The notes under the pieces were generated by a model. It was not told where the DNA came from. It saw only the letters and a program-made list of their open reading frames with translations, and searched no databases. 64,000 nucleotides of DNA from Devosia sp. Root413D1 (lineage in GTDB: Bacteria; Pseudomonadota; Alphaproteobacteria; Rhizobiales; Devosiaceae), in the NCBI RefSeq assembly GCF_001425235.1, contig NZ_LMEA01000008.1:558001-622000 (forward strand), written 5' to 3'. Of the stretch, positions 6,976 to 26,743 are shown piece by piece (the stretch's first letter is position 1; every line of letters begins with the position of its first letter). The position numbers and the translations under genes were made by a program.

Positions 6976-6980
6976 CGGGA

Positions 6981-8960: not shown

Positions 8961-8971
8961 ATGAACCGGGC

Positions 8972-10360: not shown

Positions 10361-10365
10361 TTGAT

Positions 10366-12180: not shown

Positions 12181-12906
12181 GTGGCAAGGTTGGCTGACGG
12201 ATTGGTGCTTCATCCACTCGATAATCATCTCTGGAACGCCCTGAACGGGGCGTGGGCAGGCTACAGCCGGGCGGTCGGTCGCATCCGACTGCTGTCGCCC
12301 GACATCGCCCGTGTCGTGGCCCTCGAAGCGGTTTCGCCGGCCAACCTGTCGACGCTCGCCTGGGCGATGGCTGTTGGGGAGGAAATCCTCGTCATCGCCC
12401 CCCAGGTGCTTCAATCCACCGCCGAGCTCGAGGTGCAGTCGGTCAAGCCGGTCCTGCAGATGGTTGCGGATGGGCCAAGCCCGGCTGCACCTGACATCGC
12501 GACAGTCAGGCTGAGTGTGGCCGATTTTCCGCAGATGCTGGCATTGGTGGATGTGGCGCGCCCGGGGCCGCTTGGCCCACGTGCCCTGGAGCTGGGTAAT
12601 TTCCGCGGTATCTTCGATGGCGCCAAGCTGGTGGCGCTGGCGGGTGAACGGCTGCGCTTCGACCGCTACACCGAAGTCGCCACCGTCTGCACCCACCCCG
12701 ACTATCGGGGCAGGGGCTACGCCAGGGCGGTCGTCTCGGCCGTGATGCAGGAAATCGTCGATGCTGGCCGAACGCCGTTCCTCGGCGTCGATGATGGCAA
12801 CATCGCTGCGATCCGGCTCTACGAGGCACTTGGGTTCACGCATCGCAGCACCTTCTACCTGAGTCTCGTGAAGCGCACCGGCGAGGCCGGGCAAGCTGAC
12901 CGATGA
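12181..12906 (+). CDS. GNAT-family N-acetyltransferase (FR47-like)
   Basis: An acetyltransferase of about 241 residues. The N-terminal half is poorly conserved; the C-terminal half has the GNAT core, with VCTHPDYRGRGYARAVV as the acetyl-CoA loop and IRLYEALGF at the end. The GTG at 12181 is a tentative start; an ATG at 12136 would add 15 residues. The stop overlaps the ATG of the next gene (ATGA), so the pair is coupled. Confidence 0.8.
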   Translation: MARLADGLVLHPLDNHLWNALNGAWAGYSRAVGRIRLLSPDIARVVALEAVSPANLSTLAWAMAVGEEILVIAPQVLQSTAELEVQSVKPVLQMVADGPSPAAPDIATVRLSVADFPQMLALVDVARPGPLGPRALELGNFRGIFDGAKLVALAGERLRFDRYTEVATVCTHPDYRGRGYARAVVSAVMQEIVDAGRTPFLGVDDGNIAAIRLYEALGFTHRSTFYLSLVKRTGEAGQADR

Positions 12907-14042
12907 AGGAGCAACTGGCGCGGATCTTCGCCGCCATCCCGCCTGCCGAGTTGGCCCAGGTTGCCTCCCGTGTGCTTGGCGTTGCCACGTCCGAGGTGCA
13001 ATCGGTAGCCTTCACCGAGATCGAAACATCGCATGCCGATCCTCGAACCATCGGCATTGTCCGGGTCTCGGGCCTTGCGTCGGCGGCCGGCGCCGCGAGC
13101 CCCTGGTCCTCGGTGACCAAGCTGATCGACCTGTCGGTGCCCAATGTTCTCGGCACGCCGGTCGACCCGCGCAACGAGGTGCTGGTCTACGAGAGGCGAT
13201 ATTTCGTCGGCGGTGGTGGTGGTCTGAGGCCAGCCAAGTGTTTTCACATCTCGCGGCCCAACGACACTCTGACCATCCTGTGGCTCGAGGATCTGACCGA
13301 GGCGGAGGCGCCGCCATTCTCGGCCGAGCAACTGGGCGCCATGGCGTACGACCTTGGGTTATGGAATGCCGGGGCGGCAGCCGAAGCCCCGCTATTCGAG
13401 TTTCCGACCGGAGGCGATTTCCAGGTGAAAAGCGCCGAGGGCTTCGATTTCGCGACGCGCGCCGCCGACCTCCTGGCGCTGCGGGACGAGCCGATGGTCC
13501 GCGCCATGTGCGCGCACCAGCCGGTGGAGACCGTGGTGGCCTATGTGGCGGCCTGTCTCGATCTGGTTGAGCGGTCGAAGAGCTTGCCGCATGCCTTGGG
13601 ATTGGCCGATTGCCCGATCAGCAACTTCTTTCACCGGCCGGGCGAAACCATCGCCATCGACTGGGCCGGCCTCGGCAACGAGCCGCTGGGTGCCGATGGT
13701 GGCCGCTTCATTGGATCGGCGCTGAGCTGGGGCAGGCGCTTCGTCGAGGTGGCGAGGCGCGAGCGGGACCTGTTCGGGCGCTACCTGGCGGGCCTCAGGG
13801 CGGGCGGCGCCACAGCCGCTACCGCGACCCTGCGGAGCGGCTACCTCAGCGAATTGGGGTTCTACCTTGCCTCGATGACGACCCTTCCCACCACCCTGGC
13901 GCGGCCGAAAGCCGGCCTGTCGCTCGCCTATTTCGAGAAGCGCCTCGATATGCCGATCGGCGATTTCGGTGCCGCCGCGGCAGACCTGGTGCAACTGCTG
14001 CCCTCCTACACTGCGGAAATGCGGGCGCTGCAGGGGCAGTAG
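12903..14042 (+). CDS. Kinase-like protein, distant APH/choline-kinase fold
   Basis: A 379-residue protein of uncertain function. The segment LADCPISNFFHRPGETIAID followed by WAGLGNEP resembles the catalytic and metal-binding loops (H/C-x-D-x4-N and IDW) of aminoglycoside-phosphotransferase-like kinases. A weak P-loop-like region precedes it. Overlap with the upstream GNAT gene suggests a two-enzyme modification pair acting on one amine or alcohol compound. I am confident in the gene, less so in the family. Confidence 0.65.
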   Translation: MKEQLARIFAAIPPAELAQVASRVLGVATSEVQSVAFTEIETSHADPRTIGIVRVSGLASAAGAASPWSSVTKLIDLSVPNVLGTPVDPRNEVLVYERRYFVGGGGGLRPAKCFHISRPNDTLTILWLEDLTEAEAPPFSAEQLGAMAYDLGLWNAGAAAEAPLFEFPTGGDFQVKSAEGFDFATRAADLLALRDEPMVRAMCAHQPVETVVAYVAACLDLVERSKSLPHALGLADCPISNFFHRPGETIAIDWAGLGNEPLGADGGRFIGSALSWGRRFVEVARRERDLFGRYLAGLRAGGATAATATLRSGYLSELGFYLASMTTLPTTLARPKAGLSLAYFEKRLDMPIGDFGAAAADLVQLLPSYTAEMRALQGQ

Positions 14043-14086
14043 GGTAGCGTTCGATCGGACCGCTGACTCGAGCTGTGGGCCAACAC

Positions 14087-14115
14087 ATTTAGTCCACTAA
14101 AATTATGGACTAAAT
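14087..14115. promoter_or_regulatory. GTC-N13-GAC palindrome, site A
   Basis: Perfect 10-bp arms (ATTTAGTCCA and TGGACTAAAT) around a nine-base AT-rich spacer. The GTC-to-GAC span is 19 bp, identical to two other palindromes at 16782 and 21349. It lies about 240 bp before the flavin reductase gene and is a likely transcription-factor operator of the sulfur-salvage locus. Confidence 0.7.
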
Positions 14116-14354
14116 TCAAAAATAGCATGGCGTTCTCAATCGGGCCGGCTCTCGCGGCACAATTTGTAAGGGGCTGCCGAGATTAGCAACGGCTGCTCTC
14201 GCGCCGGTGCGGCCTGTCGTGGTGCAATTTGCTCCATGTCGAACGTCACGCCCCAGCGCCGCCGAAGCCTCCCACAGCTCCTGTGGTCGCTCAGCGTTCG
14301 TGGCGTCCGCTCAGCCGCGCCTCGTCGCTATGTCCTGACCCACGGAGTTGCGTG
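14116..14354 (+). other. Leader region of the flavin reductase gene, with a possible 39-codon upstream ORF
   Basis: This long leader contains an ATG-initiated ORF of 39 codons at 14236-14355. Its TGA overlaps the flavin reductase ATG (TGATG). The encoded peptide is Arg-rich and not recognisable, and no good ribosome site precedes it. The motif AATTTG occurs twice (near 14160 and 14226). No known riboswitch was recognised. Confidence 0.3.
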
Positions 14355-14927
14355 ATGACTTTGCTCGATCCCAATGTGGCCGCCGCGGCCCCGCAGGATG
14401 CATTGACCCAGGATGCATTTGCCGACGCAGCTGCATTCAAGCGCGCGATGCGTCACCTGGCGGGGGCGGTGAGCGTCATCACCACCGGGCGTGGCGAGCA
14501 GCGCACCGGCTTCACCGCGACGTCGGTCTCATCGTTCTCCATGGATCCGCCGGCGATGATCGTCTGTCTCAACCGTTCGTCTTCGTCCTGGCCGGTGGTT
14601 CGGGAGCATCAGAGCTTCTGCATCAACCTATTGGCACATGACCAACTGCACGTCGCCGACCGCTTCAGCGGTCGCGGCGGCGCCACGGGCGTTGCGCGTT
14701 ACGAGGGTGCGGCCTGGCAGGAACTGGCCACCGGCGCGCTGGGCCTGTCCGACGCCCTGACGGTGATCGACTGCGAGCTCGACGAAGCGATCGAGCGCCA
14801 CTCACACGCCATCCTGATCGGCCGGGTCCGCGCCATCCGCACCCGCGAGACGGCGGAGCCGCTGCTCTATTGGCACGGCGCCTATCGCCATATCTCGAAT
14901 CTGGACCGCGTACTGACCTCGGCCTGA
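14355..14927 (+). CDS. Flavin reductase-like FMN-binding protein
   Basis: A 190-residue split-barrel flavin reductase of the HpaC/DIM6 type. It has MRHLAGAVSVITT near residue 30, TGFTATSVSSFSMDPPAMIV, and the C-terminal HGAYRHI signature. Such enzymes use NAD(P)H to supply reduced flavin to two-component monooxygenases, and three luciferase-like monooxygenases lie downstream. The ATG at 14355 follows GGAG and comes well after an unconserved in-frame extension. Operator site A upstream suggests control together with the monooxygenase operon. Confidence 0.88.
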   Translation: MTLLDPNVAAAAPQDALTQDAFADAAAFKRAMRHLAGAVSVITTGRGEQRTGFTATSVSSFSMDPPAMIVCLNRSSSSWPVVREHQSFCINLLAHDQLHVADRFSGRGGATGVARYEGAAWQELATGALGLSDALTVIDCELDEAIERHSHAILIGRVRAIRTRETAEPLLYWHGAYRHISNLDRVLTSA

Positions 14928-14970
14928 GGCCGGGGGCAGGGCAGTCACCACGCAACGCGGGAGCTGAAAG

Positions 14971-15390
14971 TTGGACATCAAGCATATCGACGAGCGGGTC
15001 AGCGTCTCGCCGCAGATCGGCATCGACGACGTGGCACGGCTGAAGGCAGCCGGGTTCGTCGCCATCATCAACAATCGCCCGGATGGCGAGGATGCCACCC
15101 AGCCGCCAGGCGCGGTTATCGCTGAGGCGGCGGCAGCCGCCGGTCTCCGCTACTTCGCCATTCCGCTGGGTCGTGACGGCGTCCGTGACGAGCTGATCGA
15201 GGCGACCCGCCAGGCGCTCGACAGCGTCGAAGGGCCAGTTCTCGCCTATTGCCGCTCCGGCACCCGCTCGACCACACTATGGGCGCTCAGCCAGGCCGGC
15301 CGCGAGGCGACCGAAGACCTCATCGGCAAGGCCGCGGGCGCCGGCTACGACATCTTGCACCTGCGCGGTCATCTCGACGCCGGAGTGTAG
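14971..15390 (+). CDS. TIGR01244-family phosphatase/sulfurtransferase-like protein
   Basis: A 139-residue protein of the DUF442/TIGR01244 type, related to dual-specificity phosphatases. The active-site loop CRSGTRS (C-x5-R) is intact at about residues 92-98. The start is TTG at 14971, well placed after GGGAGCTGAAAG. The family is often linked to sulfide oxidation and persulfide handling (the Blh type), which fits a sulfur-metabolism neighbourhood, but biochemical roles differ among members. Confidence 0.8.
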   Translation: MDIKHIDERVSVSPQIGIDDVARLKAAGFVAIINNRPDGEDATQPPGAVIAEAAAAAGLRYFAIPLGRDGVRDELIEATRQALDSVEGPVLAYCRSGTRSTTLWALSQAGREATEDLIGKAAGAGYDILHLRGHLDAGV

Positions 15391-15526
15391 CTCTAGCGCC
15401 GCCCTGACCACGGGATCAGCAGTTTCTCCGCCAGGAGCCGAACTGCTGTTGCTGGGTGAGGGGACACGTCGACCGGCCGCTCCTTCCACCTGAGCGGCCG
15501 GCTTCGGTAGCGGGGTCGGAAAACCT

Positions 15527-16633
15527 CTATCCCTTCCCCGCCGCCCAGGCAGTCACCTCAGTCGCATCCCGCTTCCCGGTGATCGCATCGGCCAGCCCCG
15601 ACGCAATCACCGGACCCAGCTTGAAGCCGTGCCCGGAGCACGCGCTAAGCAGCCAGCTCCTCGCCCCGATCGGCTCGACCACGAAGCGCTCATCGTCGGT
15701 GACGGTGTAGTAGCAGACCTTGGCCTCGAGCAGCTCGTAGCGCTCGAACCCTTCAAAGATCTCGCTTGCTGCCGTCTTCACCGCCGCCACGTCCTCCGGT
15801 GTCGCGATGCGATTGTCCGAGCCGTCGCCGCGGCGGGTGAACACGTGATCGCCGATCTTCAGCCGGGTGCCGCCGCGCGGTGGCAGGATGTAGCCGCCAT
15901 GGGTGACGCCCTGGTCGACCAGCACCGGCGCCGCGGCCCAGGCCGTTGCCAGTTCGACCGGCGGCTGCAGGTAGAGCATCACCTGGCGCGAGGGGGTAAG
16001 GCGGGGCCGCGCCGCGGGATAGATGGCGGGCAGCCAGGCGCCGGCGGCGATGACGACCACGTCGGCAGAGCGACGCTCGCCGTTCACCGTGAAGCTGCCG
16101 GCTTCGGTGTCGACCTCGCTCACCCGGCTATGCGGATGCAGCGCCACGCCGGCCTCGGCCAGCCACCTGGCCAGATCAGTGACGATGCGGCTGGCGAACA
16201 GCATGCCGGCGCCCTCAGCTTCGAACGCCTCGGCGATACCCTCCTGGCGCAGCATCGGCAGCCGCGTCGCGATTTCCGCCTTCGACACCGGTCGGTGGGC
16301 GATGCCCATGGCGTCGAGTTCACCAGCTGTTGCCTCGTACCAGTCCGAAGCGCGGCGGGCGACATACAGCAGGTTGGTCGGCAGGTAATGCGTCGCGCCG
16401 AGATCGCGCCACAGCTCCTCATAGGCCCGGAACGCCAGCGGCATCAGGGCGCCATAACCGCTCAGCCCGCCATAGGTGTGCCGGGTGATCCGGTGCTCGT
16501 CGAACGACGAACTGATCGGGTTAGGGATCGCTCCCTGTTCGTAAAGCGACACCCGGGCACCCCGCTTGTGCAGCGCCCAGGCCAGCGACAAGCCGCCGAT
16601 TCCGGCGCCGATGATTGCGATGTGCTGCTGCAT
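15527..16633 (-). CDS. Sarcosine-oxidase/N-methyltryptophan-oxidase-like flavoprotein
   Basis: A 368-residue FAD-dependent amine oxidase. The dinucleotide-binding motif is IAIIGAGIGGLSLAWAL at the N-terminus. Cys at about residue 307, in KVCYYTVTDDERF, matches the covalent-FAD cysteine of monomeric sarcosine oxidases, and SGHGFKLGP follows. It oxidises an N-methyl or secondary amino acid to an imine with release of peroxide; the precise substrate is unknown. The ATG at 16633 is preferred over an upstream in-frame start. It is transcribed divergently from the DUF3088 gene, with operator site B in between. Confidence 0.87.
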   Translation of the reverse strand: MQQHIAIIGAGIGGLSLAWALHKRGARVSLYEQGAIPNPISSSFDEHRITRHTYGGLSGYGALMPLAFRAYEELWRDLGATHYLPTNLLYVARRASDWYEATAGELDAMGIAHRPVSKAEIATRLPMLRQEGIAEAFEAEGAGMLFASRIVTDLARWLAEAGVALHPHSRVSEVDTEAGSFTVNGERRSADVVVIAAGAWLPAIYPAARPRLTPSRQVMLYLQPPVELATAWAAAPVLVDQGVTHGGYILPPRGGTRLKIGDHVFTRRGDGSDNRIATPEDVAAVKTAASEIFEGFERYELLEAKVCYYTVTDDERFVVEPIGARSWLLSACSGHGFKLGPVIASGLADAITGKRDATEVTAWAAGKG

Positions 16634-16778
16634 CTCTTTGTCCCGTGTTCCTGCTCTCAAGGAGAGGGAAAGCCGTTCGGCGCGTCCACTGCCGCCAAGG
16701 ACATAGTTTTTCCCGCCATGTGCCCAGAAGGCAAAGTTCTATGCCTCCAGCGCCTCGCTTTGGCGAGCATGTATCTTT

Positions 16779-16804
16779 ATTGTCCATAGAATTAATAGAC
16801 TAAT
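16779..16804. promoter_or_regulatory. GTC-N13-GAC palindrome, site B
   Basis: GTCCAT and ATAGAC half-sites with the same 19-bp span (16782-16800) as sites A and C, flanked by TT and TAAT. It lies between the divergent flavoprotein and DUF3088 genes and runs into an in-frame ATG at 16803, which argues that translation really begins downstream at 16815. Confidence 0.65.
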
Positions 16805-16814
16805 GGAGATCATC

Positions 16815-17171
16815 GTGCCGGCACGCGACAAGGCCACGCTCTACCTGCTCGAGCCCAGCTTCGAGGACGCTGCCTTTCCCGGACAGAAATTCTTCTGCCG
16901 GCACGGCGCCCTGGTCGAAGGCGTGCTCGGCCACCATCCTGAGGTGCGCGACAAGCTCAAGGTCGAGCGCATCGCTTTCTCGCGCCCGCGCCAGGCGGTG
17001 ATCGCGGCGATCGGCGAAGCCAACCAGGCGCTGCCGGTGCTGGTGCTGCCGGCCGGTGAGACCAGCCCATCCGCCACCGGCATCGCTAATGGCCATGCCT
17101 TCGCCGCTGGCGCCAGCGCCATCCTCGCGACGCTCGCCGAGCGCCACGGCATCCCCCTCATCCATCCGTGA
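16815..17171 (+). CDS. DUF3088-family protein
   Basis: A 118-residue protein of unknown function. It starts (V/M)PARDKATLYLLEPSFED and contains PGQKFFC, LVEGVL and LPVLVLP, matching the DUF3088 pattern. The GTG at 16815 is preferred because GGAG lies six bases upstream and the family begins here; the ATG at 16803 sits inside operator site B with no ribosome site. The gene leads the monooxygenase operon and ends 10 bp before the next start. The fold resembles thioredoxin-like arrangements but the cysteine pair is not obvious, so no activity is claimed. Confidence 0.8.
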   Translation: MPARDKATLYLLEPSFEDAAFPGQKFFCRHGALVEGVLGHHPEVRDKLKVERIAFSRPRQAVIAAIGEANQALPVLVLPAGETSPSATGIANGHAFAAGASAILATLAERHGIPLIHP

Positions 17172-17181
17172 GGCCCCGGCC

Positions 17182-18183
17182 ATGAGCTACACGCTGAGCC
17201 TGCTCGATAAGAGCCCCATCGCCAAAGGCGAGACCGCCCACGACGCGCTGAAGCGCACGCTGGCTTTGGCGCAGGCCGCCGAGCGGCTGGGCTTTCACCG
17301 CTTCTGGGTCGCCGAACACCACGACACCGCCGACCTCGCCAGCTCGGCGCCGGAACTGGTGATCGCCTGGCTGCTGGCGGGCACGCGGCGCATCCGCATC
17401 GGCTCGGGCGGCGTCATGCTGCAGCACTACAGCCCCTACAAGGTGGCGGAGAGCTTCAACACGCTCGCTTCGATCGCTCCGGGCCGTGTCGACCTCGGCG
17501 TCGGCAAGGCCCCTGGCGGCCTGCCATTCTCCACCAAGGCGTTGCAGAGCGAACGGGAGGCGGGCAGGAAGCTCGATTTCAACGGCCTCCTCACCGACCT
17601 CACCACCTTTCTCGACGGCACACAGGGCCCTGATCGCGCCAAGGCGACGCCGTCACCGGTAACCGCACCCGAACGCTTCCTGCTCGGCGCCAGCGTCGAC
17701 AGCGCCGAACTGGCGGCGGGGCAGGGCTGGGGTTTCGTTTTTGCCCGCCACCTCAACGGCGACGGAGCGCTGCTGGCCGCGACGGTCGAACGTTACCGCC
17801 AGCTTACCGGCCGTTCGCCGGTCGTTGCGGTCGCGGCGATCCTGTCGCGCGATGGCAGCGAGGCCAAGGCGCAGGGCGACCGGTTCCGGCCGCTGAAACT
17901 CCACATTGCCGGGCGGCAAAGCGTCACCATCGGCAGCGAAGAGCAGGCCCGGGAGTTTGCTCGCCAGGCCGGCGTCAGCGACTACCGCACCGAACCCGCA
18001 ACCCCGAGCGTCGTCACCGGCTCGCCGCGCGACCTGCTCGACGAACTCGACCGGCTGAGCGGCACGCTCGGCGTCGGCGAGTTCATCGTCGATCTGTTCA
18101 ACCAGGGCGACAGCCGCCTCGAAGCGGTCGAGCTGCTGGCCGCGGCGCACGCCGCCGCCGGCCGTGTCGCCATCCCCGCCTGA
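17182..18183 (+). CDS. Luciferase-like monooxygenase, MsnO8/CmoO type
   Basis: A 333-residue flavin-dependent monooxygenase. The start LSLLDKSPIAKGETAHDAL, the FWVAEHHD motif and GGVMLQHYSPYKVAE are typical of the MsnO8-like LLM subgroup, to which B. subtilis YtmO (CmoO) belongs. Reduced FMN would come from the nearby flavin reductase. In the Bacillus pathway this type oxidises an N-acetylated S-alkylcysteine and breaks the C-S bond. Here the substrate assignment is inferred from the gene set. Confidence 0.85.
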   Translation: MSYTLSLLDKSPIAKGETAHDALKRTLALAQAAERLGFHRFWVAEHHDTADLASSAPELVIAWLLAGTRRIRIGSGGVMLQHYSPYKVAESFNTLASIAPGRVDLGVGKAPGGLPFSTKALQSEREAGRKLDFNGLLTDLTTFLDGTQGPDRAKATPSPVTAPERFLLGASVDSAELAAGQGWGFVFARHLNGDGALLAATVERYRQLTGRSPVVAVAAILSRDGSEAKAQGDRFRPLKLHIAGRQSVTIGSEEQAREFARQAGVSDYRTEPATPSVVTGSPRDLLDELDRLSGTLGVGEFIVDLFNQGDSRLEAVELLAAAHAAAGRVAIPA

Positions 18184-18204
18184 CCCCCTAACGGAGCCCT
18201 TAAG

Positions 18205-19545
18205 ATGAGCAAGCGCATCCCATTCGGCATCATGCTGCAGGGCCCGGGCGGCCACATGAACGCCTGGAAACACCCGAGCGTCCCGGCCGATGCCAGCGTC
18301 AATTTCGACTATTACGTGCGGACCGCCAAGCAGGCCGAAGCCGCCGGCATCGCCTTCGCCTTCATCGCCGACGGGCTCTACATCAACGAAGTGTCGATCC
18401 CGCATTTCCTCAACCGCTTCGAGCCGATCGCCATTCTCTCGGCGCTTGCCGCCGTCACCGACAAGATCGGCCTCGTCGGCACTCTTTCCACCTCCTACTC
18501 GGATCCCTTCACCGTGGCCCGGCAGTTCGGTTCGGTCGATGCCATCAGCAAGGGGCGTGGCGGCTGGAACGCCGTGACCTCGCCGCTCGAGGGCTCGGCC
18601 AAGAACTACAGCCGTGAAAAACACCCCGAGCATGCGCTGCGTTATCAGATCGCCGGCGAGCATATCGACGTGGTGAAAGGCCTGTGGGACAGCTGGGACG
18701 ACGATGCGTTCGTCCGCAACCGCGAGACCGGCCAGTATGCCGATTTCTCGAAGCTGCATCGGGTCAACTACAAGGGCCAATTCCACTGCGTCGAAGGCCC
18801 GCTCAACCTCGAGCGCTCGCCGCAGGGGCAGCCGGTGCTGTTCCAGGCCGGCGGCTCCGACGACGGCATCGCGCTCGCCGGTCGTCACGCCGACGCGGTG
18901 TTCGCCAACGGCGCCTCGATCCCCGAGAATCAGGAGTTGACCAGTAAGCTCAAGGCCAGTGCCGTGGCGCATGGCCGGCGCTCCGACGACATCAAGGTGT
19001 TCCCCGGCATTTCGCCGATCGTCGGCTCGACCGCCGAGGAGGCGGAGCGCAAGTATCGCGAGATCCGCGACCTGGTCAGCGTCACCGAGGCGCTGCGCTA
19101 TATCGGCCGCTTCTTCGACCACCACGATTTCACCCAATACGACCTCGATGCGCCATTCCCTGAGCTGGGCGACTTGGGCAAGAACCAGTTCCGCTCCGGC
19201 ACCGACCGCATCAAGCGTATCGCCAAGGAGAAAAACCAGACGCTGCGCGAAGTGGCGCTCGAAAACACCACGCCGCGCAATGACTTCATCGGCACGCCCG
19301 ATGTGGTCGCCGACAAGCTGATCGAGTGGGTGGAGCAGGGGGCAGCCGATGGTTTCGTGCTCGGCTTCCAGGTCATCACCCAGGGTCTCAACGACTTTGA
19401 GGCAGAGGTGCTGCCGATCCTCGAAAAACGCGGCTACCACTCGCGTGAACTGATCGGCACCACCCTGCGCGAGCATCTCGAACTGCCGCGCCCGGTGAAC
19501 CGCTTCGCCGACGAGGCGGCGGCCAAGGCCGGGGCAGCGGAATGA
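18205..19545 (+). CDS. NtaA/SnaA/DszA-type FMN-dependent monooxygenase (CmoJ/YxeK-like)
   Basis: A 446-residue monooxygenase of the NtaA/SnaA/SoxA(DszA) subgroup. Diagnostic segments are GRGGWNAVTSPLEGSAKNY and a long C-terminal half typical of DszA and nitrilotriacetate monooxygenases. Enzymes of this class include B. subtilis YtnJ and YxeK, which cleave N-acetyl-S-alkylcysteines such as N-acetyl-S-(2-succino)cysteine. The ATG follows a CGGAG-like site. Its stop codon overlaps the M20 deacylase start (ATGA). Confidence 0.9.
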   Translation: MSKRIPFGIMLQGPGGHMNAWKHPSVPADASVNFDYYVRTAKQAEAAGIAFAFIADGLYINEVSIPHFLNRFEPIAILSALAAVTDKIGLVGTLSTSYSDPFTVARQFGSVDAISKGRGGWNAVTSPLEGSAKNYSREKHPEHALRYQIAGEHIDVVKGLWDSWDDDAFVRNRETGQYADFSKLHRVNYKGQFHCVEGPLNLERSPQGQPVLFQAGGSDDGIALAGRHADAVFANGASIPENQELTSKLKASAVAHGRRSDDIKVFPGISPIVGSTAEEAERKYREIRDLVSVTEALRYIGRFFDHHDFTQYDLDAPFPELGDLGKNQFRSGTDRIKRIAKEKNQTLREVALENTTPRNDFIGTPDVVADKLIEWVEQGAADGFVLGFQVITQGLNDFEAEVLPILEKRGYHSRELIGTTLREHLELPRPVNRFADEAAAKAGAAE

Positions 19546-20699
19546 GCATTGATGTCGCGGAGTTCGTGGCGCTCCGGCACCGGCTCCACTCCGAGCCGGA
19601 GCTGGCCTACGAGGAGAAAAACACCAGCGCGCTGGTGGCCGAGCTCCTCACGGGCTGGGGCTACGAGGTCGCGACCGGTATCGGCGGCACCGGCGTCGTC
19701 GGAACGCTCAGGCGCGGGCCGGGCGCGCGGACCATCGGCATCCGTGCCGACATGGATGCGCTGCCGATCACCGAGACGACGGGTGTCCCCTATGCCAGCA
19801 AGACGCCTGGGGTGATGCATGCCTGCGGGCATGACGGACACACTGCGATCCTCCTCGCGGCGGCCAAAGACATCGCCGCAACGCGTAACTTTTCCGGTAC
19901 CGTTCGGCTGATCTTCCAGCCCGCCGAGGAGAATGGCGGCGGCGCCCGCAAGATGATCGAGGATCGGCTGTTCGAGCGCTTCCCGGTCGATGCGGTGTTC
20001 GGGCTGCACAACTGGCCGGGGGTTCCGGCCGGCGAGTTCCGCTTCATCGACGGCCCGGCGATGGCCTCGGTCGACATGGTCGTCGTCACCATCACCGGCA
20101 AGGGTGGGCATGGTGCCCGGCCGCACGAAGCGGTGGATCCGATCGTCACCGCTGCCTCGCTGATCATGGCGTTGCAGACTATCGTCTCGCGCAACATCGA
20201 TCCGCTCGAGGCGGCGGTGGTCACCGTGGGCGCCATCCACGGCGGCAACGTGCCAAACGTCATCCCTGAGAGCGTCGAGCTGCTGCTCACCGTCCGCGCT
20301 TTCTCCGCGTCGGTACGCGAGAGTATCAAGCAGCGGATCGCCGCGCTCGCCGAGGCCCATGCCCAGAGCTTCGGTGCGAGTGCCAAGGTTTCGGCGCCGC
20401 GCGGCTATCCTGTGCTGGTCAACCACGCCGCCGAGAACGCCTTCGCGCGGGGCGTGGCGCAGCGGCAGCTGGGGGAGGGGAGTGTCGGTACGCTCCCGCC
20501 GATCACCGCCAGCGAGGACTTTGCCTTCATGCTGGAACAGCGCCCTGGCGCCTACCTGTTCGTCGGCAATGGCCCGAGCGCCGATCTCCACAGCCCCAAC
20601 TACGACTTCAACGACGAGATCCTCGGCATAGCTGCCCGCTACTGGGTGGCGCTGGTCGAGGATTACCTCAGGGCCAACGAGGAGGCGGCAGCGGCATGA
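19542..20699 (+). CDS. M20-family amidohydrolase, probable N-acetylcysteine-type deacylase
   Basis: A 385-residue metallohydrolase of the M20D group. Metal-binding features are visible in order: MHACGHDGH (about residue 95), PAEENGGG, GLHNWPG and a C-terminal TASEDFAF. The central lid/dimerisation domain is present. Homologues such as YxeP and YtnL/SndB remove the N-acetyl group after C-S cleavage, releasing cysteine. ATGA overlaps at both ends tie it to the monooxygenase before it and the acetyltransferase after it. Confidence 0.9.
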   Translation: MSIDVAEFVALRHRLHSEPELAYEEKNTSALVAELLTGWGYEVATGIGGTGVVGTLRRGPGARTIGIRADMDALPITETTGVPYASKTPGVMHACGHDGHTAILLAAAKDIAATRNFSGTVRLIFQPAEENGGGARKMIEDRLFERFPVDAVFGLHNWPGVPAGEFRFIDGPAMASVDMVVVTITGKGGHGARPHEAVDPIVTAASLIMALQTIVSRNIDPLEAAVVTVGAIHGGNVPNVIPESVELLLTVRAFSASVRESIKQRIAALAEAHAQSFGASAKVSAPRGYPVLVNHAAENAFARGVAQRQLGEGSVGTLPPITASEDFAFMLEQRPGAYLFVGNGPSADLHSPNYDFNDEILGIAARYWVALVEDYLRANEEAAAA

Positions 20700-21265
20700 G
20701 CGACTATTTCTACTACACCACCCCTGACCACCCGCTGGCCGAACCGCTCGTCAACCAGCTGACCGCGGAGTACGACCGGCGCTACGGCGCCTATTTCGGC
20801 GAGACGGCCGACAAGGAAATGAATCGCTACCCGGCAGCGCTGTTCGCGCCGCCCGATGGCAATTTCCTCTTACTGCTGCGCGACGGTTTTCCGATCGCTG
20901 GCGGCGCCTTCAAGCGCTTCGATGGTGAAACCGCCGAGCTCAAGCGCATCTGGACCGATGAGAACCATCGCCGCCAGGGTTTGGCCCGACGGGTGGTGGC
21001 CGAGCTCGAGCAGCAGGCGTTCCGGCAGGGCTTTTCGCGCCTCTACCTCACCACCGGCTTCCGCCAGCCGGAGGCGCGCGACCTCTACCTCAATGCGGGC
21101 TACACCCCGCTGTTCGATGTGGATGCCGATCCCGAGATCTACGGCGCGCTGCCATTCGAGAAATTTCTCGTCAACCCGCCGCCCGGCTATGTCCCGACGT
21201 TGGTGACCCCGCCCGAGGGCGGCTGGAAGGCGGCGCGCGAGCGCCAACTCGCCGAGCACAGATAG
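20696..21265 (+). CDS. GNAT acetyltransferase, SnaA/YxeL-like
   Basis: A 189-residue acetyltransferase. The acetyl-CoA loop ENHRRQGLARRVV and the late YLNAGY motif are clear. The N-terminal half has FLLLLRDGFPIAGGAFKRF as the strand pair before the loop. In the analogous Bacillus operons this enzyme N-acetylates the S-alkylcysteine so that the monooxygenase can act. The ATGA overlap with the deacylase shows acetylation and deacetylation enzymes made in step. Confidence 0.87.
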   Translation: MSDYFYYTTPDHPLAEPLVNQLTAEYDRRYGAYFGETADKEMNRYPAALFAPPDGNFLLLLRDGFPIAGGAFKRFDGETAELKRIWTDENHRRQGLARRVVAELEQQAFRQGFSRLYLTTGFRQPEARDLYLNAGYTPLFDVDADPEIYGALPFEKFLVNPPPGYVPTLVTPPEGGWKAARERQLAEHR

Positions 21266-21345
21266 CCACGGCACCGCATTTTCGCAGGCAAACGAACTCT
21301 CCGGCGACCCAACAACAGACGCCGATGCTTTGACCCCGCGACGTT

Positions 21346-21370
21346 AAAGTCTATCATTTTGATAGACTAA
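21346..21370. promoter_or_regulatory. GTC-N13-GAC palindrome, site C
   Basis: Nine-base perfect arms, AGTCTATCA and TGATAGACT, with a three-base spacer. The GTC-to-GAC span (21349-21367) is again 19 bp. It sits 47 bp before the ABC permease-ATPase gene and is the best-conserved of the three sites. Confidence 0.75.
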
Positions 21371-21413
21371 TAATGACGGGCCCAAGCCCCAGGAACAACG
21401 AAGGCACCTCTGA

Positions 21414-23192
21414 ATGGCTACGACCGATGCAAGTTCTGCGAGTGTCGAACTCGACCTGGCGCGCTCCTCCGCCGATCCGGGCGGTTATCGCGTCGTGCCG
21501 GCCAAGCACCCATGGCGGATCGCCGGCACGGTGGTGGCGGGGCTGCTGATCCTCGTCACGCTCCACTCGGTGCTCACCAACGAGCGCTGGGGCTGGACGG
21601 TGTTCGCCCAGTACTTCTTCGATGGGGCGGTGCTGATCGGCCTCGGCCGCACTCTGTGGCTGACGCTGCTGGCCAGCGTGCTCGGCTTCTTCCTCGGCGG
21701 CCTGCTGGCGTTCGCCCGGGTGTCGAAGTCGAAGCTGCTTTCCGGCCTCTCCTGGGCCTATATCTGGCTGCTGCGCTCGATCCCGCTGATCGTCCTGCTG
21801 CTGGTGCTCAACAATATCGGCTACCTCTACCCGACCGTCGATATCGGTATCCCGTTCACCGATATCCTGTTCGCCCAGTACGGCACCACCTCGGTGCTCA
21901 GCGTCTTCGCCGTGGCGGTGATCGGCCTCAGCCTCAACCAGGCGGCCTTCTCGGCCGAGATCATCCGGGGCGGCATCCTGTCGATCGACCAGGGCCAGCA
22001 GGAGGCCGCAGCCGCACTTGGCCTCTCCTGGCGCCACCAGTCGCTGCGCATCGTCCTGCCGCAGGCCATGCGCGCCATCATCCCCTCGGGCTTCAACGAG
22101 ATCATCGGCCTCGCCAAGGCCACCTCCATTGTCTACGTGCTGGCGCTGCCCGAGCTCTTCTACACCGTCCAGGTCATCTACAAGCGGAACCTCGAGGTCA
22201 TCCCGCTGCTGATGGTGGCAACGGTCTGGTACCTGATCATCATGAGCGTGTTGTCGCTCGTGCAGTTCGGCATCGAGCGCTATTTCGCCAAGGGCGCCAC
22301 TCGCGAGGTGCAGGCGCCGCTGCTCGGCCGCTTCCTCGGTCCCAACCGCACCGCCCGGACCATCGCCGCCGTCCGTGCCGCGCCGCAAGCCCAGCGCGCG
22401 CCGCTCGCCGCCTTCGATCGGCACAGTCACGATGTCGGCCGCATCGACATCCGCCGCATCACCAAGAGCTTTGGCGACTTCAAGGCGCTCGACAATGTGA
22501 GCCTCACGGTCGAGCCCGGCGAAGTGACCGTGATCATCGGCCCCTCGGGCGCCGGCAAATCGACGCTGCTGCGTACCATCAACCACCTCGAGCGGCCGGA
22601 TGCCGGGTTCGTCTCGATCGATGGCGAGATCATCGCCTACGAGCAGCGCGGCAACGTGCTCTACGAACTCAAGGATCGCGCCATCCGAGAGCGCCGCGCC
22701 GGCATCGGCATGGTGTTCCAGAACTTCAACCTGTTCCCGCATCTGACGGCGGTGGAGAACCTGATCGAAGCCCCCATCGCGGTGCAGAAGCTCGAGCACG
22801 GCAAGGCCGTCGGCCAGGCGCTCGACCTGCTCGATCGCGTCGGTCTCTCCGACAAAGCCGAGGCCTATCCGCGGCATCTCTCCGGCGGCCAGCAGCAGCG
22901 CGTCGCCATTGCCCGCGCCCTGGCGCTGAAGCCCAAGGTCTTGCTGTTCGACGAGCCAACTTCGGCGCTCGACCCCGAGCTGGTGGGCGAAGTGCTCGAC
23001 ACCATCAAGGAGCTGGCGAAATCGGGGACCACGATGGTCATCGTCACCCACGAGATCGGCTTCGCCCGAGAGGTCGCCGACAAGATCGTCTTCATGGAAA
23101 ATGGTCGCATCGTCGAAGCCGGCGCGCCCGAGCGCCTCTTCAACTCTCCCTCACACCACCGGACGGCCGAGTTCCTGGCCAAGGTCCTCTGA
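21414..23192 (+). CDS. Fused amino-acid ABC importer: permease plus ATPase
   Basis: A 592-residue fusion of two usually separate subunits. Residues about 35-305 are a HisM-type permease with helices and the EAA loop QQEAAAALGLSWRHQSLRIV. Residues about 345-592 are a polar-amino-acid ATPase with Walker A GPSGAGKSTLL, signature LSGGQQQR and Walker B VLLFDEPTSALD. The linker (about 305-345) is Ala/Arg-rich. With the two following binding proteins it would import a cystine- or S-alkylcysteine-like amino acid. No frameshift is needed to read through, so the fusion is genuine in this sequence. Confidence 0.9.
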   Translation: MATTDASSASVELDLARSSADPGGYRVVPAKHPWRIAGTVVAGLLILVTLHSVLTNERWGWTVFAQYFFDGAVLIGLGRTLWLTLLASVLGFFLGGLLAFARVSKSKLLSGLSWAYIWLLRSIPLIVLLLVLNNIGYLYPTVDIGIPFTDILFAQYGTTSVLSVFAVAVIGLSLNQAAFSAEIIRGGILSIDQGQQEAAAALGLSWRHQSLRIVLPQAMRAIIPSGFNEIIGLAKATSIVYVLALPELFYTVQVIYKRNLEVIPLLMVATVWYLIIMSVLSLVQFGIERYFAKGATREVQAPLLGRFLGPNRTARTIAAVRAAPQAQRAPLAAFDRHSHDVGRIDIRRITKSFGDFKALDNVSLTVEPGEVTVIIGPSGAGKSTLLRTINHLERPDAGFVSIDGEIIAYEQRGNVLYELKDRAIRERRAGIGMVFQNFNLFPHLTAVENLIEAPIAVQKLEHGKAVGQALDLLDRVGLSDKAEAYPRHLSGGQQQRVAIARALALKPKVLLFDEPTSALDPELVGEVLDTIKELAKSGTTMVIVTHEIGFAREVADKIVFMENGRIVEAGAPERLFNSPSHHRTAEFLAKVL

Positions 23193-23210
23193 CACACAAG
23201 GTCTCCTGAA

Positions 23211-24140
23211 ATGCGCCTTCTTTCTCTCATGCTCGCCGGTGGCCTCGCCGCCGCCGGCCTCGGCGGAGCCTACGCTGCCGAAGATATCTTCGATCTCAGC
23301 CCCGAGCAGCCCAGCCGCATCCATGTCGAGGCCGATCCGGCGCTGGCCGCAAAGCTCCCCGCCGACTTCAAGTGGGTGGTGCCGGGCAGCTTCACCGTGG
23401 CGGTTGCCGCCGCCGGCGAGCCGCCGCTCGGCACCTACGCCACCGACGCTGCGACCGTGGTCGGCGCCGACCCTGATATCGCCTGGCTGGTTGCCGACAA
23501 GCTGGGGCTGAAGCTCAACCTCGTGCCGGTGGCCTGGGCCGATTGGCCGCTCGGCCTCACCTCGGGCAAGTATGACGCGGTGATCAGTAATGTCGGCGTT
23601 ACCGAAGAGCGGAAGCTGAAGTTCGACTTTTCGACTTACCGGCAGGGCCTGCACGGCTTCTTCGTTGTCACCGACAGCCCGATCACCTCGCTGAAGCAAC
23701 CCAGGGACGTTGCCGGCCTCAAGATCGCGACCAGCTCGGGCACCATCCAGGATCGCATCATCAACGAGTGGAACAAGGAGAACGTCGCCGCCGGCCTCCT
23801 GGCGAGCGACATCCTCTACTACGAGGACACCCCGGCGGCGCTGCTCGCCATCCAGTCCGGGCGCGTCGATGCCATCTTCAACGTCAATTCGATCTTCACC
23901 TACCAGGGCCTGAAGACCGGGGCGATCCACCAGGTCGGCACCGTCAATGCCGGCTGGCCCAACACCACCGAGGTCGGCATCACCACCCGCAAGGACAGCG
24001 GTCTCGCTCCGGTGCTGACCGAGGCGCTGAACGCGGTGATCGCAGACGGCAGCTATCTGAAGACGCTGGAGCGCTGGAAGCTGGCGCCTGAGGCGGTGGA
24101 GACCGCAAAGACCAACCCGCCGGGCCTGCCTAAGTACTGA
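23211..24140 (+). CDS. Polar-amino-acid-type ABC binding protein, first copy
   Basis: A 309-residue periplasmic binding protein with a signal peptide ending around GGAYA-AED. The family-3 binding fold is recognisable: AWLVADKLGLKLNLVPV, then KYDAVISNVGVTEERKLKFD with the aromatic-acidic signature. The segment ANPPGLPKY-type tail is shared with the next gene, to which it is clearly homologous. It lies 18 bp after the fused transporter gene. Confidence 0.88.
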   Translation: MRLLSLMLAGGLAAAGLGGAYAAEDIFDLSPEQPSRIHVEADPALAAKLPADFKWVVPGSFTVAVAAAGEPPLGTYATDAATVVGADPDIAWLVADKLGLKLNLVPVAWADWPLGLTSGKYDAVISNVGVTEERKLKFDFSTYRQGLHGFFVVTDSPITSLKQPRDVAGLKIATSSGTIQDRIINEWNKENVAAGLLASDILYYEDTPAALLAIQSGRVDAIFNVNSIFTYQGLKTGAIHQVGTVNAGWPNTTEVGITTRKDSGLAPVLTEALNAVIADGSYLKTLERWKLAPEAVETAKTNPPGLPKY

Positions 24141-24148
24141 GCTCAGGG

Positions 24149-24180
24149 CATTTCGCCGTTTCGCTTGAAACGGTGAAATG
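24149..24180. repeat. Palindromic intergenic element between tandem binding-protein genes
   Basis: Two 14-bp arms, CATTTCGCCGTTTC and GAAACGGTGAAATG, with one mismatch and a GCTT loop. It has no T-run. Similar palindromes recur in many alphaproteobacterial genomes. Here it could stabilise the upstream transcript or dampen expression of the second binding protein. Confidence 0.6.
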
Positions 24181-24310
24181 TCCCCAAAGCTTCTACCAGA
24201 CACGCCGGCGACAGTGCGAAGCGCCGGACGCATAGCGTCGCATTACCGGGGACACCGGGATGTGCGCCCAGCCTCTTCGCGCCCAATTGGACCCAAGAAA
24301 GGCGTCAAAA

Positions 24311-25246
24311 ATGACCCTCATTCGCACGGCAGCCGCAGGCATTCTCGCCGCCGGCCTGCTGTTCTCCGCCACTTCAGGGGCTTTCGCCCAGGGCGGCTTC
24401 GACCTCACTCCCGAGCAGACGGCTCGCCCCAAAGCCGAAGCCAATCCGGACGCGATCGCCAAGATCTCACCCGACTTCAAGCCGGTGAAGCCGGGCGCCC
24501 TTACTGTGGCGCTGACTGTCGGCGATCCGCCGCTCTCGACGTACGCCACCGACTCCTCGACGCCGGTTGGCGTCGAGGAAGATACGGCCTCGATCATTGC
24601 CGACGCGCTGGGCCTCGAACTCGTCCTGGTGCCGGTGGCCTGGCCCGATTGGCCGCTGGGCCTCGAATCCGGCAAGTTTGACGCGGTGATTTCCAACGTC
24701 ACCGTCACCGAGGCGCGCAAGGAGAAGTTCGACTTCTCGTCCTATCGCCTCGACGTCCTCGGCTTCTACGTGCCGAACGAGAGCAAGATCACCGAGATCA
24801 AGGAACCCAAGGACATTGCGGGCCTCAAGGTGATCGTCGGGGCTGGCACCAACCAGGAAAAGATCGTCGTCGAGTGGGACAAGCAGAACGTTGCCGCCGG
24901 CCTGCCGGCCGCCGAGTTCCAGTATTATGACGATACCGCCGCGGCGCAGCTGGCGCTGCAGTCCGGCCGCGCCGACGTCGAGTTCAACCCCAACGCCCAG
25001 CTCGCCTACCGCGCCGTGGTGAGCGGCAACACCCGGCTCGTCGGCATCGTCAACGGCGGCTGGCCGCTGACCGCCGAGATCGCTGTCGCCACCAGGAAGG
25101 GCGCCGGCCTCGCCGATGCGCTCACCGCCGCCATCAACGGGCTGATCGCCGACGGCAAGTACATCGAGGCGCTGAAGCGCTGGGGCCTCGACGCCGAGAA
25201 ACTCGGCGAATCGCGCACCAACCCGCCGGGCCTGCCCAAGACCTGA
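24311..25246 (+). CDS. Polar-amino-acid-type ABC binding protein, second copy
   Basis: A 311-residue paralogue of the preceding gene, sharing DLTPEQ, the PVAWPDWPLGLESGKFDAV block and the NPPGLPK ending. The signal peptide starts MTLIRTAAAGILAAGLLF and is cleaved near AFA-QGG. The ATG at 24311 is chosen over an upstream in-frame ATG because it begins the signal peptide. The two copies have diverged in the middle, which suggests different ligands served by a single fused transporter. Confidence 0.88.
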   Translation: MTLIRTAAAGILAAGLLFSATSGAFAQGGFDLTPEQTARPKAEANPDAIAKISPDFKPVKPGALTVALTVGDPPLSTYATDSSTPVGVEEDTASIIADALGLELVLVPVAWPDWPLGLESGKFDAVISNVTVTEARKEKFDFSSYRLDVLGFYVPNESKITEIKEPKDIAGLKVIVGAGTNQEKIVVEWDKQNVAAGLPAAEFQYYDDTAAAQLALQSGRADVEFNPNAQLAYRAVVSGNTRLVGIVNGGWPLTAEIAVATRKGAGLADALTAAINGLIADGKYIEALKRWGLDAEKLGESRTNPPGLPKT

Positions 25247-25365
25247 TCACTAACAAGACCTGACCAGACCTGAGCCCCAGATCGTCCCACCCCTTCCTCG
25301 GGACGTAACCGGCGCCGCGTGTCGCCTCTCTCCTTGGCACGCGGCGCTTCAACGCGAACACTCCC

Positions 25366-26343
25366 ATGACCATCAGCAAGCTCAGCTTTCTTATCCCCGG
25401 CAACTACGCGGAGAACGATCCGCATACCGGCCTCGAGGCGACGCTTCGGATCATCGAGCTGGGTGAGGCGCTGGGCTATCACGGCGCCTGGGTGCGTCAG
25501 CGGCACCTCGAACACGGCATTTCGTCGGCAGCGGTGTTCCTCGCCGCGGCCAGCCAGCGCACGCGCCGGATCGAGCTCGGCAGCGCAGTGATCCAGATCG
25601 GCTACGAGAGCCCGTTCCGCCTCGCCGAGGACCTCGCGATGGCGGAGGCGCTATCCGCCGGGCGGCTGAATGTCGGGCTCAGCGCCGGCCCGCCACAGCA
25701 CCTCGACCTGCTCGGCCCGCTGGTGTTCGACGGCGACTACCGCTCGTTCGATTTCTCGCACCGGCGCATCGCGCGGCTGGTCGAGCTGCTGCGCGCAGAG
25801 CCGTTGGGCGAGCCGATCGCCATCCCCGGCGGCAAGGCGGTGCCGCGGGTGCAACCGGGCGTGCCCGGCCTCCTCGACCGACTATGGTATGGCGGCGGTT
25901 CGCTGAAATCGGCCGAATGGGCGGGTGCGAACGGCTTCAACCTGCTGGTCGGCAACGTCACCTCGGGCGAAGGGACAGACGATTTCGTCACTGCGCAACT
26001 CAACCAGATCGCGGTCTATCGGGCCCAGGCTCGGGGTGCCTCCGGCCGCATCGCGCTGGGTCGGGTGATCGTGCCGCTCGACAGCGCCAGCCGGACCACG
26101 CGGGAGCGCTATCTCGCCTATGCCCAGTCCCGCCATGCCCGCACGCTGCAGCCCAATGGCGACAAGCGCACCCTGTTCGCACCCGACCTGGTCGGCACGC
26201 TGGCCGATATCGCCGAGCGACTCACCGCGGACGCCGCAGTGGCAGCGGCCGACGAGTTGCGCCTCGAGCTGCCCTATGAGTTCGACGAGGCCGACTACGC
26301 CCAGATCCTCACCGACGCCATCGGCTTGCTGACGAAGTCCTGA
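25366..26343 (+). CDS. Luciferase-like flavin-dependent monooxygenase
   Basis: A 325-residue LLM-class protein at the end of the sulfur-salvage locus. The N-terminus KLSFLIPGNYAENDPHTGLE, the WVRQRHLEHG segment in place of the usual EHH motif, and LSAGRLNVGLSAGPP show the fold. It is the third LLM enzyme of the locus and the least typical. It may oxidise a different S-alkyl substrate or sulfonate; I do not assign one. A 119-bp gap separates it from the binding protein. Confidence 0.82.
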   Translation: MTISKLSFLIPGNYAENDPHTGLEATLRIIELGEALGYHGAWVRQRHLEHGISSAAVFLAAASQRTRRIELGSAVIQIGYESPFRLAEDLAMAEALSAGRLNVGLSAGPPQHLDLLGPLVFDGDYRSFDFSHRRIARLVELLRAEPLGEPIAIPGGKAVPRVQPGVPGLLDRLWYGGGSLKSAEWAGANGFNLLVGNVTSGEGTDDFVTAQLNQIAVYRAQARGASGRIALGRVIVPLDSASRTTRERYLAYAQSRHARTLQPNGDKRTLFAPDLVGTLADIAERLTADAAVAAADELRLELPYEFDEADYAQILTDAIGLLTKS

Positions 26344-26494
26344 ATAACCTGCCGAGGCGGGCGTCAGCGACTTGCCCCCCGGTCGAGCGACGCGCTTTTC
26401 GCCGACAGCAGTTGAGTACCGCAAAGCCACACGCTCACGTAACGCTCGCTTAACACACAATATCGGAACCTAGGCGCCAATCAGGAGTGCATTG

Positions 26495-26743
26495 ATGGGT
26501 GCGACCGTGCTGGCTGCCTTGCTTGCCAGCGGACTAGGCTTGATAGCCGGAGGTTACTATTCGACGGTCGGCTGGATCGTGGTGGGTAACCTGTTGCTCG
26601 TGACCACGGCGACGGCGTCGTTCGCGGCGCACGCCGATCTCGTCACGGCCCTGGGCTGGACAGCGCTCTCTATCGTCGCGTTCAATATCGGCCTGATGCT
26701 CGGCCTCATCATCCGGCGCCCGGTGGTCCTTATTCCCGCGTGA
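26495..26743 (+). CDS. Small membrane protein, unknown function
   Basis: An 82-residue protein with two or three hydrophobic helices (LAALLASGLGLIAGGYYSTV, then a stretch around GWIVVGNLLLVTTATASF, and a last one ending IGLMLGLII). The ATG at 26495 follows CAGGAG. It stands alone, on the same strand as the next gene. No family recognised. Confidence 0.65.
   Translation: MGATVLAALLASGLGLIAGGYYSTVGWIVVGNLLLVTTATASFAAHADLVTALGWTALSIVAFNIGLMLGLIIRRPVVLIPA

Follow-up and report, generated by a model that had tools for sequence, protein, structure and literature searches.

A probable CmoO/CmoJ-type S-alkylcysteine salvage locus in Devosia sp. Root413D1 and its likely Rrf2 regulator-operator pair

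A 64,000-nucleotide stretch of Devosia sp. Root413D1 (contig NZ_LMEA01000008.1, positions 558,001 to 622,000), here called the window, was scanned with Pfam and NCBIfam profiles. It is part of contig C8 of a 5.85-Mb genome and carries an S-alkylcysteine-type gene set and, downstream, a gene for an Rrf2-family regulator. The closest described systems are those of Bacillus subtilis. In the pathway of PMC10863075 an S-alkylcysteine is N-acetylated, sulfoxidized by CmoO and cleaved at the C-S bond by CmoJ to N-acetylcysteine sulfenic acid, which is reduced and then deacetylated; the available text lists the reduction step without an enzyme. The B. subtilis operon is given as snaA-tcyJKLMN-cmoOIJ-sndA (PMC11487621), and PMC12757645 is a further source for the known pathway and operon. 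YtnI is called a "putative glutaredoxin" in PMC10780176. PMC9706529 gives the yxe locus as YxeK, YxeL, YxeMNO, YxeP and YxeQ, with a loose definition that needs three of the five components and a threshold of >50% identity for YxeK orthologues. ScmP, YhaA and YtnL of B. subtilis are described, in the text available, as N-acetylcysteine deacetylases. The yxe/scm system shares with the Devosia locus the logic of acetylation, oxidative breakdown and deacetylation, and a YxeP-like M20 enzyme. YtnJ is taken here to be CmoJ, YtnI to be CmoI, and TcyJ and TcyK to be the two binding proteins of the B. subtilis importer. The operon named above is presumably the ytm operon, CmoO (YtmO) presumably a member of the MsnO8 family and YxeQ presumably of the MmgE/PrpD-like family.

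The Devosia locus resembles the B. subtilis cmo operon, as far as the accessible text describes it, in having a GNAT protein, an amino-acid ABC importer with two binding proteins, a CmoJ-type and a putatively CmoO-type monooxygenase and an M20 enzyme. An Rrf2-type regulator (CymR in B. subtilis) is a further likeness, and a small protein of (here predicted) thioredoxin-like fold may be another. It differs in having DUF3088, of a different Pfam family, where B. subtilis has CmoI, and a flavin reductase where B. subtilis has RibR. Its permease and ATPase are fused, a third luciferase-like monooxygenase (LLM) is added, and it has its own four-cysteine CymR-like regulator and its own palindrome. 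The third LLM has no counterpart in the operon as given in the available part of PMC11487621. The locus is read, with a probability of about three in four, as the Devosia form of the CmoO/CmoJ S-alkylcysteine salvage pathway, under a CymR-like Rrf2 repressor.

In family profile searches the gene set spanned 14355-26343 of the window (Table 1). The original prediction had named an NtaA-type, an MsnO8-like and a third LLM monooxygenase, an M20 deacylase, a GNAT, an amino-acid ABC importer, a flavin reductase, DUF3088 and a sarcosine-oxidase-like protein; all of these families were present there. The TIGR01244-family gene, the permease-ATPase fusion, three palindromes and the Rrf2 gene were found in addition. 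One candidate gene was present in the window for each enzyme step of the CmoO/CmoJ pathway, and a CmoJ-like NtaA protein, GNAT, M20 hydrolase and amino-acid ABC importer all occurred at the locus. The NtaA protein aligned with YtnJ over nearly its full length (residues 5-431, E 3e-151). The M20 protein had YxeP as its top PDB match (E 6e-71), with an indole-3-acetic acid (IAA)-amino-acid hydrolase close behind (E 5e-69), and also scored highly with the DoeB2 and CpsA models. For binding protein 2 the top NCBIfam model was a cystine substrate-binding protein, at 82 bits and so under the cut-off of 312. From DUF3088 to GNAT the genes lie close together: the first two intervals measure 10 and 21 bp (the latter between MsnO8, upstream, and NtaA), and the next two junctions are ATGA overlaps. 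These overlaps, which had been predicted, were real (NtaA/M20 at 19542-19545, M20/GNAT at 20696-20699). A GTG at 16815 with GGAG ahead of it may be the true start of DUF3088.

Table 1. Features of the locus and its surroundings (window positions).
Feature	Position	Strand	Details
Palindrome 1	14090-14112		Before flavin reductase; 0 mismatches to TAGTCYAYN7RTRGACTA
Flavin reductase	14355-14927	+	PF01613, E 3.9e-39
TIGR01244-family sulfurtransferase / BLH phosphatase-like	14971-15390	+	TTG start; 141 bits, cut-off 86
DAO: FAD-dependent amine/sarcosine-oxidase-like protein	15527-16660	-	Divergent side gene; PF01266, E 2.3e-44
Palindrome 2	16780-16802		Divergent DAO/DUF3088 gap; 1 mismatch
DUF3088	16803-17171	+	PF11287, E 3.9e-35; 120.5 bits, gathering cut-off 26.4
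MsnO8-family LLM, CmoO-like	17182-18183	+	TIGR03558, 295 bits, cut-off 167
NtaA/DmoA-family FMN monooxygenase, CmoJ-like	18205-19545	+	TIGR03860, 502 bits, cut-off 280
M20 amidohydrolase	19542-20699	+	TIGR01891, 361 bits, cut-off 154
GNAT	20696-21265	+	PF00583, E 1.2e-15
Sigma-70-like promoter match	21330-21357	+	TTGACC-16-TATCAT, 10/12; overlaps palindrome 3
Palindrome 3	21347-21369		Before importer genes; 1 mismatch (TA-flanked form), 0 (W-flanked form)
Amino-acid ABC permease-ATPase fusion	21414-23192	+	BPD_transp_1 91-293, ABC_tran 359-517; single frame
Family-3 substrate-binding protein 1	23211-24140	+	PF00497, E 1.6e-21
Family-3 substrate-binding protein 2	24260-25246	+	PF00497, E 1.4e-21
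Third LLM	25366-26343	+	PF00296, E 6.9e-26
Weak palindrome	31302-31322		43 bp before Rrf2 start; 2 mismatches to looser core, 5 to strict
Rrf2-family regulator, CymR-like	31366-31812	+	PF02082, E 3.9e-37

A search with the NtaA protein gave at least 593 stretches, of which 581 were confirmed, and the gene set was compared with the best 80 of these; these are the nearest loci and not an even sample. Gene presence was scored by BLAST with an identity threshold per gene, and contig ends cut some loci. The core genes were kept almost throughout: MsnO8 and GNAT in 79/80 loci each and the fused ABC protein in 77/80, followed by M20 and at least two binding proteins (68/80 each) and the third LLM (57/80). 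The flavin reductase (14/80), DUF3088 (12/80), DAO (4/80, all Devosia) and the TIGR01244 gene (0/80) are not core. The core set spans alpha-, beta- and gammaproteobacteria in these loci, with hosts including Devosia, Phyllobacterium, Rhizobium, Agrobacterium, Bosea, Methylobacterium, Stenotrophomonas, Variovorax and Acidovorax. As the core is kept across 80 loci and many genera, the gene set is an established operon and not a local assembly; a chance assembly or artefact was ruled out by the same conservation. The window NtaA protein and its counterpart in Devosia sp. 66-14 share 97% identity. The spread of the gene set is patchy, with an NtaA gene (E <= 1e-120) in 14 of 121 genomes of the window's family.

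Sulfur genes occurred in the neighborhoods of these loci, namely an FMN reductase cluster (11 loci) and a Cys/Met-metabolism lyase cluster (8 loci), one member of each being checked by Pfam. A taurine-type binding-protein cluster, identified by reading only, lay near 9 loci. A DSBA-like protein was found in 15/80 loci (one member checked, PF01323; e.g., L061:18067-18660). In loci of Rhizobium, Brucella and Ochrobactrum its gene lay 3' of the operon; none of the 12 DUF3088-bearing loci had it. It could be a DUF3088 replacement, or the pattern could be mere taxonomy.

The steps and the substrate of the proposed route are all read from sequence relationships. S-alkylcysteine would be imported by the amino-acid ABC importer, with its two binding proteins and fused permease-ATPase, and N-acetylated by the GNAT. 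The MsnO8/CmoO-like enzyme would then convert the thioether to a sulfoxide, and the NtaA/CmoJ-like enzyme would split the C-S bond to give N-acetylcysteine sulfenic acid, with release of a carbonyl compound. The sulfenate would be reduced in a thiol step, possibly by DUF3088, and cysteine would be freed by the M20 enzyme acting as an N-acetylcysteine deacetylase. Reduced FMN would come from the flavin reductase, a probable FMNH2 supplier. Under ample sulfur the CymR-like Rrf2 protein would repress the locus through AGTCYAY-N7-RTRGACT sites; its binding to the palindromes, repression rather than activation and the effector are all presumed. The additional genes had been taken as a possible sign of a wider substrate range. 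Of these, the flavin reductase fits flavin supply and DUF3088 a possible thiol step; the third LLM is the best candidate for extra substrates.

DUF3088 (PF11287) is placed in the thioredoxin-like clan in the available text of PMC3091736, and the papers examined that name the family give, in the parts accessible, no pathway for it. It is uncommon, being found in 10/289 genomes of the class and 29/398 of the phylum (own genome included). An AlphaFold2 model from 22 sequences had a mean predicted local distance difference test (pLDDT) score of 94. Foldseek matched the model to glutathione S-transferase (GST) Omega, thioredoxins and, lower, dehydroascorbate reductase (DHAR), none at E <= 0.001, and a sequence-profile search of the DUF3088 alignment against the PDB gave nothing significant (best E 0.15). 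The predicted fold is thioredoxin/GST-N-like. The window protein has a single thiol, Cys32 (CRHG), which opens the first helix, and an invariant Pro78 that precedes a strand; in the model both are placed as in thioredoxin folds.

A maximum likelihood tree of 47 DUF3088 proteins contained an MsnO8-linked clade of 14 (support 98/98), each encoded directly before MsnO8. The motif was CRHS or CRHG in 13/14 members, which have lost the second Cys of the typical CxxC, and CPHC in 1/14. Nine members were collected with the NtaA search or from the window itself, a choice that selects for MsnO8 linkage. Five more (L158, L159, L162-L164), collected by a DUF3088 family search, were MsnO8-linked as well, although L162-L164 nearly duplicate rows of the Stenotrophomonas group that had been counted before. 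Nine proteins formed a second clade (support 99/97), which stood in other organosulfur settings: four, from Devosia, carry the same operon and five came from the family search. Neighbors in this clade were an NtaA-type gene (L149, L154), a GNAT (L150), a binding protein with the third LLM type and a GNAT (L153) and, as a weak link, an ABC ATPase (L152). For the remaining 24 proteins, BLAST of the 3.3-kb pieces, to a distance of about 1.5 kb, gave no match to any other protein of the window. CxxC was kept in 20/24 of these and lost in 4/24; it was also lost in 2/9 of the second clade. A single thiol alone is therefore not diagnostic. In L166 the DUF3088 match was in two fragments, neither of which is in the tree (one was too short).

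A family devoted to this pathway was rejected, as 24/47 tree proteins lie outside both organosulfur-linked clades, and DUF3088 as a core pathway gene was likewise rejected at 12/80 loci. Both the position and the chemistry of the single-thiol DUF3088 in the MsnO8-linked clade would suit a glutathione-dependent reduction of the CmoJ product. A role as an N-acetylcysteine-sulfenate reductase parallel to CmoI is a good hypothesis.

The AGTCYAY-N7-RTRGACT palindrome had exactly three sites in the 64-kb window at <=2 mismatches (14091, 16781, 21348). In its TA-flanked form at <=1 mismatch these were the only sites in the whole genome, where a first-order model expects 0.034. The W-flanked form added a fourth genome site at 1 mismatch (C9:72064). 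The promoter-like match that overlaps palindrome 3 was the sole one in 13900-26600; the overlap would suit a repressor, but shuffles averaged 1.2, so that the scan is not above chance. Palindrome 3 was kept with 0 mismatches in the two nearest Devosia loci, L025 (Devosia 66-14) and L026. Palindromes 1 and 2 were less conserved: at <=1 mismatch only site 3 recurred in these two loci. A counterpart of palindrome 2 with 2 mismatches lay before DUF3088 of L025, and the other six of seven DUF3088-upstream stretches scanned had no convincing palindrome.

Across the 80 relatives 24 sites were found in 23 loci at <=1 mismatch; the corresponding figures for a scrambled palindrome were 3 and 3. Upstream of MsnO8 (-250 to +120 bp around the ORF start, 79 loci) a site at <=2 mismatches was present in 34/79 loci, compared to 30 of 1600 windows drawn at random from these loci (1.9%), and at <=3 mismatches in 45/79. 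A site upstream of the ABC gene was found in 5/76 loci, all Devosia.

A wide sulfur regulon under the palindrome is tempting but not proven. The 23-mer had 14 sites at exactly 3 mismatches in the genome, and at <=3 mismatches a reversed control gave 69 sites per strand while the real pattern gave 18. Four of the 14 were inspected, chosen for AT-rich cores, of which two lay before sulfur genes and two did not. C7:119623 (L116, 6624) is directly before cysD (confirmed by NCBIfam) and a cysN-like gene (by reading). C11:534084 is before an NtaA-family gene, behind which lie an FMN-reductase-like gene and one for a sulfonate-type binding protein (both by reading). C8:19785 is at a gene that reads like a sugar-type binding protein, and C9:279918 is inside an ORF. 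The site at C9:72064, counted with 2 mismatches where 1.2 sites are expected by chance in the genome at <=2, lies before an operon of SsuABC-like (by reading) and NtaA-family genes, one NtaA-family monooxygenase being confirmed (L012, C9:66000-80000, 6065-12908). An operon of permease, ATPase, binding-protein and NtaA genes follows a 3-mismatch variant at C7:16591; the orthologous operon of Devosia ZB163 (74-83% identical) has a site with 1 mismatch (L026). In a search of 19 genomes of the genus, palindrome matches in genomes without the locus were mostly GC-rich and look like chance. Elsewhere in the genome a second M20 gene, 72% identical to that of the window, lies beside an ABC importer (L010, C14:143500-163400, 9944-13774) whose ATPase and permease are 50% and 33% identical to the window fusion. 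The 20-kb piece had no match to the window monooxygenases; the set may serve the uptake of N-acyl amino acids.

An Rrf2 gene of one cluster was found in 7/80 loci. In three Agrobacterium loci (L043, L045, L050) and one of Devosia (L035) it is the divergent neighbor of MsnO8, and a weaker palindrome, with 3, 3, 3 and 2 mismatches, respectively, precedes it. The window Rrf2 was 61-72% identical to these locus proteins and the best of the genome's seven Rrf2 proteins above cut-off. CymR was its best curated equivalog (NF047409, 86.1 bits), ahead of IscR (68), NsrR (66) and RirA (57). At a cut-off of 195 it is not a CymR equivalog and is classed as a CymR-like Rrf2 only. Among PDB matches 4cic, an Rrf2 protein, was first and CymR (2y75) second (E 7e-19). 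CymR belongs to Firmicutes, a different taxon, and 2y75 does not have the four Cys in the alignment.

Window-type Rrf2 proteins at E <= 1e-50 (Rrf2-A) were surveyed in the 121 genomes of the window's family. They occurred in 30, comprising 14/14 genomes with the NtaA gene and 16/107 without it (Fisher p 1.9e-10, which takes no account of relatedness among genomes). In 7 of the 14 genomes with both, Rrf2-A and NtaA were <=15 kb apart. A looser core, WGTCYA-N9-TRGACW, was present at <=2 mismatches 33-72 bp before the start of 19/30 Rrf2-A genes, compared to 68/3000 random windows and 124/6000 shuffles (about 2%); core and region (-105 to -25) were picked after the strict-palindrome list had been seen, and near-identical Devosia account for several of the 30 rows. 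The clearest case is G662, a genome without an NtaA match, where a near-perfect site (1 mismatch, strict form) lies 42 bp before Rrf2-A. The own-gene sites are taken as probable autoregulation and as the best evidence that Rrf2-A reads the palindrome. Together with the conserved sites and the co-occurrence, they make the regulator-operator pair likely, the own-gene sites having been chosen after a first look.

Four Cys in the arrangement C-X8-C-X2-C-X4-C were invariant in all 30 Rrf2-A proteins. The same four were present in seven related paralogues, mostly beside sulfate-transport genes (neighbors by reading). A metal or Fe-S center is a guess. A second four-Cys Rrf2 of the genome (L138; C1, 102789), 49% identical, adjoins a sulfate-binding-protein-like gene (by reading). 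This pairing recurs in class genomes L122, L128, L133 and L135 (by reading) and suggests a wider sulfur-linked Rrf2 family. Beyond the window Rrf2 gene an Opp/Nik/Gsi-type ABC importer with SBP_bac_5 lies on the minus strand at 32640-37906. Two of its proteins were scanned and fell under every curated equivalog cut-off, so peptide, nickel and glutathione are all possible.

Several observations weigh against the CmoO/CmoJ reading with its Rrf2 repressor, besides the relatedness and the choice after inspection stated above. The top solved relative of the NtaA protein is 3sdo, annotated as a nitrilotriacetate monooxygenase, which scores above YtnJ (E 9e-178). DUF3088 is missing from 68/80 loci, and its single-thiol forms are found outside the MsnO8-linked clade too. 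In 34/79 loci MsnO8 has no site at <=3 mismatches before it, and these include every one of the nine loci from beta- and gammaproteobacteria (L076, L079, L087, L090, L091, L093, L095, L099, L104). The strict palindrome at <=2 mismatches lies before 3/30 Rrf2-A genes (control 2.1%). Six genomes of the genus have Rrf2-A without an NtaA match; apart from G662 these (G656, G658, G664, G667, G668) have no W-flanked site at <=1 mismatch. Finally, 5 kb of unrelated genes separate the Rrf2 gene from the locus in the window, and no more than 7 of the 80 loci carry an Rrf2 gene.

Some of these points would favor another regulator, for example of the LysR type, as the protein bound to the palindrome, with Rrf2 as a bystander. 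The CTAT-N7-ATAG core resembles LysR-type sites. The distance of the Rrf2 gene, the rarity of the strict palindrome before Rrf2-A genes and its weakness at the window's own Rrf2 agree with a bystander, as do the many palindrome-bearing loci without an Rrf2 gene in the stretch examined. The bystander explanation is nevertheless unlikely, given the looser core before Rrf2-A genes at a frequency far above the 2% of controls, the site in G662 and the presence of Rrf2-A in every genome with NtaA. The Rrf2 repressor is part of the preferred reading. A more far-reaching proposal, in which the single-thiol DUF3088 is a dedicated sulfenate reductase and a four-Cys Rrf2 repressor with its own operator governs the pathway in Rhizobiales, is tentative and less likely than not; the repressor would perhaps sense cysteine, persulfide or Fe-S status.

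The original prediction had labeled the locus as of S-(2-succino)cysteine (2SC) type, and a locus dedicated to 2SC disposal on the model of B. subtilis yxe/scm, in which NtaA would take the part of YxeK, has arguments of its own. GNAT, an NtaA-family monooxygenase, M20 and an amino-acid ABC importer are yxe components too, and YxeP leads the M20 matches. The yxe locus as given in the accessible text of PMC9706529 has no MsnO8/CmoO enzyme, however, and MsnO8 is present in nearly all of the 80 loci compared. No MmgE/PrpD-like (YxeQ) or lyase-class-I match was found among the scanned locus proteins, and the substrate is likely different. The CmoO/CmoJ route is preferred over the 2SC-specific one because MsnO8 is nearly always present and the yxe definition is without it, which makes 2SC disposal quite improbable. 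The predicted likeness was borne out for the functional set, and NtaA matches YtnJ; the 2SC-type label was not supported, though 2SC may still be a substrate. Catabolism of a different compound, N-substituted or sulfur-containing, such as an aminopolycarboxylate, a plant S-alkylcysteine sulfoxide or an N-acyl amino acid, with GNAT and M20 otherwise employed, would suit the annotation of 3sdo, the nearby sarcosine-oxidase-like and third LLM genes and the DoeB2, CpsA and IAA-amino-acid hydrolase matches of M20, but is very improbable against the conserved MsnO8-NtaA-GNAT-importer set and the sulfur genes near related loci.

The CmoO/CmoJ pathway itself is known, and what is new is the Devosia-type enzyme set, a variant of it. 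A search that covered mostly non-subscription papers turned up no description of this enzyme set in these Proteobacteria and none of an alphaproteobacterial Rrf2 regulator of S-alkylcysteine salvage. On the CmoO/CmoJ reading, a cysteine-repair pathway that was described only recently would also exist, as a conserved operon, in Proteobacteria associated with plants and soil. Two DUF3088 lineages would gain a testable role, and a likely regulator-operator pair is named. If true, a dedicated DUF3088 reductase would close the sulfenic-acid reduction step that stands without an enzyme in the scheme of PMC10863075, as far as that scheme is available.

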